A DNA stretch of 58,226 nucleotides from Thermoplasmata archaeon (GTDB lineage Archaea > Thermoplasmatota > Thermoplasmata > Lutacidiplasmatales > UBA184). The number at the start of each line of letters is the position of its first letter. The stretch's first letter is position 1. The notes below the pieces were generated by a model that did not search any database, was not told the origin of the DNA, and worked only from the letters and a program-made list of their open reading frames with translations. The DNA is taken from contig JAKIWQ010000008.1 of NCBI GenBank assembly GCA_022749935.1, positions 1 to 58,226 of the forward strand. The letters are read 5' to 3'. A program made the translations under genes and the position numbers. Below, piece after piece: positions 47,902-50,095 of this stretch.

Positions 47902-48795
47902 GTGACCGAACGACTCCAAGGGGCGCCGGTCGCGGAAACGATCGACCGGGCGACCCGGGAGGCCCTTCGGGAGGGCGGGGAACGAGGGACGCCTCCCTGT
48001 CTCGCGAGCATCCACCGCGGCCTGGAAGGGCCCTTTCGACTCTACTTGAACCGGCAACGCCGGGCGGCCGAAACGCTCGGGATCCGCTTCCGTGAGGAGA
48101 CGCTCGCGCCGTCGGAGGGCCCGGCGGGTCTTCGGGCCCGCGCGAGGTCCCTCGACGGCGACCCCTCCGTCCACGCGGTCCTCGTGGAGCACCCGCTCCC
48201 GACCCGGTACGAGTTCCAGTCGGCGGTGGACGAACTCCGGCCCACGAAGGACGTGGACGGAGTGGGGACGAAGAACCTGGGCCAGTTGGTGGGCGGCCGG
48301 CCCGAGCACGCCCCGGCGGTCGCGCTCGCGGCCCTCGCGATCGCCCGCCACTACCACCTGCCGCTCGACGGGGCGCCGGTGGCGATCATCGGCCGTTCGG
48401 GGACCGTGGGCCTGCCCCTCGCGCTCCTCCTGGCCCAACGGAGTCCGGGTCCGAACGCGACCGTTACGGTGGCCCACACCGGAACCCGCGACCTGGCCCG
48501 GGCCCTCGCGGGCGCCCGGACCGTGTTCTCGTGTGCCGGTGCCCCGAATCTCCTGAACCGGTCCGTCGTCCCGAAAGAGGCGGCCGTCATCGACATCGGG
48601 CTCTCGACCCTACCGGACCCGAGCCGGGCGACTGGCGTCCGGATCGTGGGCGACGCGGACCTCGAGTCGCTGGACGGCTGGGCCAGCTCGGTCACGCCCG
48701 TGCCGGGGGGAGTCGGACCGGTGACGGTCGCGGAGCTCATGCGGAGCACGGTCCGGTCGTGGCAGGCCCAGCCGGGGGGAGGGCCCGCGCCGTGA
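47902..48795 (+). CDS. FolD-like methylene-tetrahydrofolate dehydrogenase homologue with altered active site
   Basis: A 297-residue FolD homologue that aligns end to end with E. coli FolD. The NADP-binding 'VAIIGRSGTVGLPLALLLA', 'KDVDG' and 'TPVPGGVGPVTVAELM' are kept. However, the catalytic Lys of 'YVASKRKA' is Gln52 ('YLNRQRRA'), the Gln of 'LVQLPLP' is Glu96 ('LVEHPLP'), and the 'PCTPxG' block reads 'EHAPAVA'. Cyclohydrolase activity depends on that Lys, so this protein may be a dehydrogenase only, or use another C1 carrier. Its stop overlaps the GTG of a Cys-rich partner (GTGA). ATG 47902. Confidence 0.88.
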   Translation: MTERLQGAPVAETIDRATREALREGGERGTPPCLASIHRGLEGPFRLYLNRQRRAAETLGIRFREETLAPSEGPAGLRARARSLDGDPSVHAVLVEHPLPTRYEFQSAVDELRPTKDVDGVGTKNLGQLVGGRPEHAPAVALAALAIARHYHLPLDGAPVAIIGRSGTVGLPLALLLAQRSPGPNATVTVAHTGTRDLARALAGARTVFSCAGAPNLLNRSVVPKEAAVIDIGLSTLPDPSRATGVRIVGDADLESLDGWASSVTPVPGGVGPVTVAELMRSTVRSWQAQPGGGPAP

Positions 48796-49145
48796 CGCCC
48801 ACACCCCGACGGTCCAAGTCCCCGATCGACCTCCACTGTCGCGACTGCCCCATGTGGTACGGCGGGGAGGACGACGGCTGGGGGCCCTGCTCGATCAAGA
48901 ACCGTCGCGGGGCCAACCGGTACCTGACGTGGGGCGGCCACGAGTGCGACGAGAACTACACGCCGCCGACCACCACACCCGCCTTCGCGAGCGCGGCGCG
49001 GTTGAGCGGCATCCGCTCGACCTCGAGCGCATCGGCGGTCGGATACTCCTCGACCTCAAAGGCGGGCCAGGGCAAACGGCGGGCGGCGCGACGCAGCGCC
49101 TCCGGCCCGAGTTCCACGCGCCGGCGGGCGACGTCCAACCGGTAG
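48792..49145 (+). CDS. Cys-rich small protein coupled to the FolD homologue
   Basis: The frame begins at GTG 48792, overlapping the FolD stop (GTGA). The N-terminal ~60 residues look conserved and metal-binding: 'DLHCRDCPMWYGGEDDGWGP', 'CSIKNRRGANRYLTWGG' and 'HECDENYTPP', with four Cys and several His. After about 48956 the frame continues for some 190 nt antisense to the end of the radical SAM gene as a Ser/Arg/Ala-rich tail that is probably not functional sequence. No family recognised; a small iron-sulfur or zinc protein is the best guess. Confidence 0.65.
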   Translation: MTPTPRRSKSPIDLHCRDCPMWYGGEDDGWGPCSIKNRRGANRYLTWGGHECDENYTPPTTTPAFASAARLSGIRSTSSASAVGYSSTSKAGQGKRRAARRSASGPSSTRRRATSNR

Positions 49146-50095
49146 TCGTCGCTCCCGATCCCGACCTTTCGGGCCACCGAGAGGGCCCAGCGGGGAAGGT
49201 CGACCGCCCGGTCGGGTTCGACGATCCCGAGGATCACCGTGCCGTCCGGCGTCCGCTCCGCGAACGACGGGGCCGTCCGTTCGGCCCGTCGCAACAATCG
49301 TTGTCGGAGTTGGACGCTGTCCTTGAACCGGGACGAACAGTAGTGGACGGGCATCGAGAGGGACGATTCTCGAACGACCCGCTCCGCCACGGCCCGACTC
49401 CCCTTGACGCCCCAGCCGTTCTGCGGGTCCACTCGGTACCCGCGACCGTGGAGCTGGTCCTCGTTGGTCTCGGAGAACTCGAGCTCGTTGAGGTTGACGA
49501 AGTCGACCCCGATCTCGTCGAGCGTCCGCAACAGGCGCCGCAGCTCGGGCTCCTTCTCGGGGAGGACCGGGATCTCCACGCCCCGCCGGATCCCCCAGGA
49601 GGGAGCCTGCTCGAGGACCGCGCGGTACGCCCCTCCTTCCGACGCGAGCGGGCCCCACAGGTAGTGGGGGATGTGGAGGCGGAATTCGTCCAGCCCCGCC
49701 CGGGCCAGGCGCTGGAGCTTCTCCGGGTGGGGTTCGTGGGTGTAGAGGTGGATGTTGTGCTCGGGCCCGAACTCGGTCTTCAACAGGCGAACGTAGTGCT
49801 CGACGCGGTCGACCACCCCGAGCGGGTCTCCGCCGGTGATCCCGGTCCCTCCGGCCCCGATCGAGCGTGCCTCCTCGAGAACGTCGGCGTCGGTCACCAC
49901 CCTCCGCTCGTTCGCATACACGACGTCTTTCTGGTTTCGGTTCGGGGAGACGGGACAGTAGAAGCAGCGAAAGCGGCAGAGCCCGGTGACGAACAGGACC
50001 ATCTTGCGCCCCTCCGCGCACTGCGTGCAGGCCGGGGAGAGGTCCCCCCGGTAGCTCGAGGCCATCGGAAGGAGGTGCAGGCTGGGCGCGGACAT
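48956..50095 (-). CDS. Radical SAM protein
   Basis: A 379-residue radical SAM enzyme. The cluster motif is 'CRFRCFYC' near residues 40-47, preceded by 'TQCAEGRKMVLFVTGL' with an extra Cys pair. 'ITGGDPLG' is the SAM-binding GGE-type motif (here GGD), and 'NIHLYTHEP', 'RLHIPHYLWG' and 'FVNLNELEFSETN' follow the TIM barrel strands. A C-terminal domain ('MPVHYCSSRFKDSVQLRQRL') contains one more Cys. It resembles archaeal PFL-activase-like proteins of unknown substrate. Divergent from the proteasome gene; its last part overlaps the Cys-rich ORF on the other strand. Confidence 0.9.
   Translation of the reverse strand: MSAPSLHLLPMASSYRGDLSPACTQCAEGRKMVLFVTGLCRFRCFYCPVSPNRNQKDVVYANERRVVTDADVLEEARSIGAGGTGITGGDPLGVVDRVEHYVRLLKTEFGPEHNIHLYTHEPHPEKLQRLARAGLDEFRLHIPHYLWGPLASEGGAYRAVLEQAPSWGIRRGVEIPVLPEKEPELRRLLRTLDEIGVDFVNLNELEFSETNEDQLHGRGYRVDPQNGWGVKGSRAVAERVVRESSLSMPVHYCSSRFKDSVQLRQRLLRRAERTAPSFAERTPDGTVILGIVEPDRAVDLPRWALSVARKVGIGSDDYRLDVARRRVELGPEALRRAARRLPWPAFEVEEYPTADALEVERMPLNRAALAKAGVVVGGV

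Follow-up and report, generated by a model that had tools for sequence, protein, structure and literature searches.

A soil-type archaeal lineage whose sole FolD has a rebuilt second active site and probably performs only one of the two usual reactions

The folD locus and its product

The window, meaning the whole stretch of 58,226 nucleotides that was analysed, contains a folD-type gene followed by a short Cys-rich ORF and a radical SAM gene (Table 1). Genes for an archaeal LonB and an archaeal proteasome alpha subunit are found near folD and mark the window as archaeal. The folD product has the two domains expected of FolD, in order, with Pfam scores of 59.1 for PF00763 (cut-off 32.8) and 140.7 for PF02882 (cut-off 27). 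Its closest PDB matches are FolD/MTHFD enzymes, the best at 1.9e-40, and it is 26.9% identical to E. coli FolD. The nearest named relatives are Thermoplasmata MAGs (JOPF series; n=2), with FolD identities of 64-67%. Exactly one PF00763 gene was found in the 1.79 Mb, 95%-complete genome, and none of the congeneric genomes searched had two. Elsewhere in the phylum two folD genes lie in tandem at one locus (L223, G127:C57:31651-32874), which is unusual for Thermoplasmatota. AlphaFold models were built from few sequences and are of low confidence (pLDDT 53 for FolD and 49 for the Cys-rich protein), so they were left out of the analysis.

Table 1. Positions in the window of the genes and of the active-site codons discussed in the text.
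Feature	Position	Strand	Remarks
folD-type gene	47902..48795	+	GTG start, 297 aa; sole copy in genome
Tyr48 codon	48043..48045	+	E. coli Tyr50, substrate stacking; kept
Gln52 codon	48055..48057	+	Aligns with E. coli Lys54; Q throughout the family (62/62)
Glu96 codon	48187..48189	+	Aligns with E. coli Gln98; E throughout the genus (49/49), Q in 11 sister-genus sequences
His97 codon	48190..48192	+	E. coli Leu99 position; invariant in family
Asp119 codon	48256..48258	+	E. coli Asp121, pterin binding; kept
PAVA block (P138-A-V-A141)	48313..48324	+	Replaces canonical P(C/A)TP; aligns with P140-C-T-P143
Cys-rich ORF	48792..49145	+	117 aa if whole frame used; GTG start overlaps folD stop (GTGA)
Radical SAM gene (neighbour)	48956..50095	-	Convergent; overlaps 3' part of Cys-rich ORF

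A gapped multiple alignment with E. coli FolD agrees with the earlier, ungapped one of the initial annotation in placing Gln52 at Lys54 and Glu96 at Gln98. The YxxxK motif that carries the catalytic Lys therefore reads YLNRQ, and the Gln found at position 98 in E. coli and 100 in the human enzyme is Glu. The pterin-binding Asp and the stacking Tyr are both in place (Asp119 and Tyr48). The NADP-binding motifs are retained, as had been proposed, in the form GRSGTVG, and so is VTPVPGGVGP. The PCTPxG block had been described as lost; the change is real, but the block is replaced by a conserved PAVA rather than missing. Residues are numbered below as in E. coli FolD. The invariant His99, which the initial annotation does not mention, adjoins Glu/Gln98 and may from its position be chemically relevant.

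Conservation of the altered site and the linked Cys-rich gene

Gln54 and Glu98 are both fixed in the 49 congeneric FolDs that were extracted. Gln54 is universal in the whole family, sister genera included (62 of 62 sequences with data), and position 98 is Gln in 11 sister-genus sequences and Glu in 2. Since Gln98 is retained in those 11 relatives, K54Q, which the whole family shares, is the earlier of the two changes, and Q98E followed it. Besides position 54, the differences fixed in the family against canonical Thermoplasmatota FolDs are F47, H99, V142, A143 and T170. Of these, V142 is present in 63/63 family sequences and A143 in 62/63; the canonical FolDs carry T at the first position (82/82) and P at the second (80/82), this comparison set of 82 Thermoplasmatota FolDs having been chosen on K54 and Q98 themselves. 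That Gln54 and Glu98 are fixed while Y50, D121, GRSxTVG and VPGGVG are kept indicates purifying selection and not decay. A second, canonical folD, which would make this one an ordinary decayed paralogue, had been named as the finding that would count against an altered function; with only one copy present it does not bear against it, and the single copy and the strong conservation of the fixed residues rule out a decayed paralogue. Sequencing error or chance is likewise ruled out, because Gln54 and Glu98 occur in 49 independent genomes. The variant is a real, conserved change in the active site of FolD.

In 43 of 47 genus loci the start codon of the Cys-rich gene overlaps the stop codon of folD, and the gene lies 3' of folD at every genus locus with enough sequence. 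Its third codon positions are far more variable than the first and second, so it evolves as a protein, with a conserved core of CxxCPMWYG..DGWGPCSIK..RG..RYLT.GGH.CDE. The stop codon lies 98-104 codons past the CxxC in nearly all genus loci, and in the window the ORF overlaps the convergent radical SAM gene over 48956-49145, about 190 bases. The small family to which it belongs (CxxC.{13}C...H.CDE; 48792-48974 in the window, loci L138-L143) occurs in various Thermoplasmatota and gave no significant match in Pfam, NCBIfam or PDB. A partial match to HiPIP was rejected, at 20.5 bits against a Pfam cut-off of 22 and with a PDB E-value of 0.089.

The initial annotation suggested that FolD may act with this coupled protein, and the gene arrangement it relied on is real. 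We consider it very unlikely, all the same, that the two translationally coupled products form a complex in which the Cys-rich protein supplies a metal or redox function. The overlap of start and stop codons, the adjacency wherever the contig is long enough, and the four Cys and one His strongly conserved in the protein are what speak for it. The gene occurs in 46 of 390 phylum genomes. In the four genomes checked outside the family (G074, G083, G088 and G098), however, it and folD are on different contigs; in one of these (G088) it sits beside aIF5B and GNAT genes while the FolD is of the canonical K/Q type. A joint function is thus not supported. The expected co-variation of the Gln/Glu pair with the Cys-rich gene also fails, since relatives with Gln98 carry the gene and elsewhere it stands apart from a canonical folD. 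The linkage is a trait of the family: it does not follow Glu98, and within one clade it is inseparable from Gln54. In family f16 the Cys-rich gene adjoins aIF5B and GNAT genes.

Across the phylum, the canonical K/Q pair at positions 54/98 is found in about 30 families. A K/E pair is found in Thermoplasma-like and other lineages, T. acidophilum included (3NGL), and a K/H pair in one family (f11), while V, M, R, I, N or L takes the place of K54 in a dozen other families. Gln at position 54 was observed only in the family of the window FolD. Parsimony on a FolD tree, built with columns 54 and 98 blanked, requires some 12 changes at K54, and 6 when the site is scored as a whole, so that the window FolD represents one of several lineages with an altered cyclohydrolase site. 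Positions 54 and 99 change together in other lineages as well (H in f33; Y in f41 and f12; R in f23, f27 and f57).

Two further families are worth recording here. In f2, which belongs to the same order (L075/G073, L077/G075), the QLPLP region of FolD is short by two residues (IVLMG--F), V54 is accompanied by Glu at 121, and detection of PF00763 is marginal; this is the most degraded site seen. In f30 (L190, L196-L198, L206, L208), Phe replaces Tyr50 and Glu replaces Asp121, with K54/Q98 retained; judged from these residues, it is a separate remodelling of the FolD pocket.

Folate enzymes and the proposed function

The genes of the pathway were sought one by one, covering Fhs, PurN, PurH, urocanase, FTCD and beta-RFAP synthase. 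The genome encodes Fhs (3.5e-198), a PurN-type formyltransferase (PF00551, 3.5e-39), PurH (1.5e-89) and urocanase (7.5e-80). With Fhs, PurN and PurH present, the cell requires 10-formyl-THF and can produce it from formate, which rules out the explanation that these cells have no need of it. There is also a fused glutamate formiminotransferase-cyclodeaminase (FTCD) of 489 aa, encoded at L096 6458-7927 on the minus strand, which scores 363 bits against TIGR02024, above the cut-off. Its cyclodeaminase domain (FTCD_C, 5.6e-36) keeps the motifs PTPGGGS, ED..Y, SD and NV..NL. The cyclodeaminase domain family includes the separate cyclohydrolase FchA, and FTCD_C thus gives this genome another domain from a family that contains cyclohydrolases. 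Against the FchA equivalog model NF045657 the FTCD protein scores 60.4 bits, far under the cut-off of 275.

It is unlikely that the altered pterin pocket is accounted for by a different C1 carrier or substrate. In this genus (G000 and congeners) the family scores of Fhs, PurN, PurH, FTCD_C and FolD are all below those of other Thermoplasmatota, while the urocanase score is hardly reduced, a pattern that counts in its favour. A search of the genome for beta-RFAP synthase found none, however, which makes a methanopterin-type carrier unlikely and argues for true folates, and in published work Thermoplasmata are said to use PurN and therefore folate (PMC3261824). The idea of another substrate, raised in the initial annotation, gained no positive support. 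Asp121 and Tyr50 of the pterin/pABA pocket are kept, and the folate-requiring Fhs, PurN and PurH are present.

In published structural work, the Lys anchors the carbonyl of the pterin and is itself held by the Gln, and the substrate is kept in place by Tyr and Asp (PMC3368264; PMC9173628). With Tyr and Asp kept and Lys and Gln gone, hydride transfer would be expected to stay and hydrolysis to go. We therefore favour, with reasonable though far from complete confidence, a functional NADP-linked methylene-THF dehydrogenase whose cyclohydrolase activity would be lost or greatly reduced and covered by FTCD and Fhs. The remodelled cyclohydrolase site (K54Q, Q98E, L99H and PCTP changed to PAVA) would leave FolD with the NADP-linked interconversion of methylene-THF and methenyl-THF. 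Fhs would form 10-formyl-THF from formate and so supply PurN and PurH. Methenyl-THF, including that from histidine breakdown, would be linked to 10-formyl-THF by the FchA-like domain of FTCD, or by a slow, non-enzymatic route. Separate cyclohydrolases (PMC7219735) and monofunctional methylene-THF dehydrogenases (PMC6443876) are both known.

The distribution of FTCD_C fits the idea of such a backup. Among the 130 Thermoplasmatota genomes placed on the FolD tree, those with degenerate FolD sites have FTCD_C in 63 cases and lack it in 3, and those with canonical sites have it in 42 and lack it in 22. Of the three exceptions, two are incomplete genomes (74% and 87%), and in the third case a congeneric genome carries the domain. 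It counts against the idea that one genome of the window FolD's own family (G363) is without FTCD_C, although its congener has it. For the whole site, Fisher's test gives p = 1e-5 by genome, kinship being ignored, and p = 0.015 by family; with K54 taken on its own the values are 0.03 and 0.19. A tree-aware test finds only 2-4 supported independent pairs, too few to give it power, and is not significant. Most FolDs of genomes without FTCD_C are canonical, and urocanase is missing from most of the same families, which confounds FTCD_C with histidine degradation, so the association with the degenerate site may be indirect. The association is consistent with the backup idea, and is not proof of it.

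Evidence against a dehydrogenase-only enzyme comes from Bombyx mori MTHFD, in which K53A and Q97A leave measurable dehydrogenase and cyclohydrolase activities (PMC6443876, Table 2), the wild-type efficiency of that enzyme being very low (PMC6443876). These data conflict with what is expected from the loss of Lys and Gln. The initial annotation took the Lys to be needed for cyclohydrolase; its structural role is indeed published, but with activity surviving in K53A the point is less settled. It is rather unlikely that the window FolD is still bifunctional, with Gln54, Glu/Gln98 and the invariant His99 taking over from Lys54-Gln98, for example if His or Glu activated water or served as a proton relay. 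The invariance of His99 and the near-invariance of the PAVA block in the family agree with this, as do the repeated joint substitutions of residues 54 and 99 elsewhere in the phylum, the persistence of cyclohydrolase activity in both Bombyx mutants, and a mechanistic paper that leaves the Lys as base unsettled (PMC9173628). If so, the Gln-Glu(Gln)-His set with its PAVA loop would be a second chemical solution to methenyl-THF hydrolysis within the FolD fold, which we regard as doubtful. Against it, canonical Thermoplasmatota FolDs have K54 and Q98 in 82 of 82 cases, in a set chosen on these residues, and loss of K54 is almost confined to genomes with another candidate cyclohydrolase. The dehydrogenase-only reading, already put forward in the initial annotation, thus appears the most likely one, with family-wide fixation and the presence of Fhs, PurN, PurH and FTCD_C on its side and the Bombyx mutants against it. 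The sole FolD of a soil-type archaeal lineage has had its second active site rebuilt and probably performs only one of the two usual reactions, with other enzymes covering the missing step.

Comparison with known systems

The bifunctional FolD/MTHFD enzymes (E. coli 1B0A; human DC301, 1A4I) have PF00763 and PF02882 and thus a fold family in common with the window FolD. They also share with it the Tyr of YxxxK, the pterin-binding Asp, the GRSxxVG cofactor loop and the VPGGVG motif. The window FolD differs from them in having Gln for the Lys of YxxxK, Glu for Gln98, His for Leu99 and PAVA for PCTP. Entire archaeal families are probably mislabelled where automatic annotation calls their FolD bifunctional.

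The FolD of Thermoplasma acidophilum (3NGL/3NGX; FolD_Thplmales) is from the same phylum and likewise carries Glu in place of Gln98, but it keeps the Lys where the window FolD has Gln. Against the NCBIfam model FolD_Thplmales the window FolD scores 124 bits, under the cut-off of 480. The mechanism by which FolD/MTHFD hydrolyses methenyl-THF is a matter of debate, as is the part that the Lys plays. In Thermoplasmatota, nature provides a range of pairs at positions 54/98 (K/Q, K/E, K/H, Q/Q, Q/E, N/N, I/G and R/Q) in FolDs maintained by selection, so that the contribution of each residue, including the disputed Lys, can be tested.

The monofunctional dehydrogenases (yeast MTD1, 1EDZ; Peptostreptococcus productus) also have their fold in common with the window FolD. 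In yeast MTD1 the residues of the cyclohydrolase site are changed. Compared with these enzymes the window FolD is much nearer to bacterial-type FolD and has an NADP-type loop. The window FolD resembles the known single-function versions. A division of labour between FolD, FchA and Fhs is described for clostridia (Aluri et al. 2016, as cited in PMC7219735). As in clostridia, a dehydrogenase, a separate domain of a cyclohydrolase family and Fhs are found within one genome; unlike in clostridia, the FchA-like domain is here divergent and fused into the FTCD protein.
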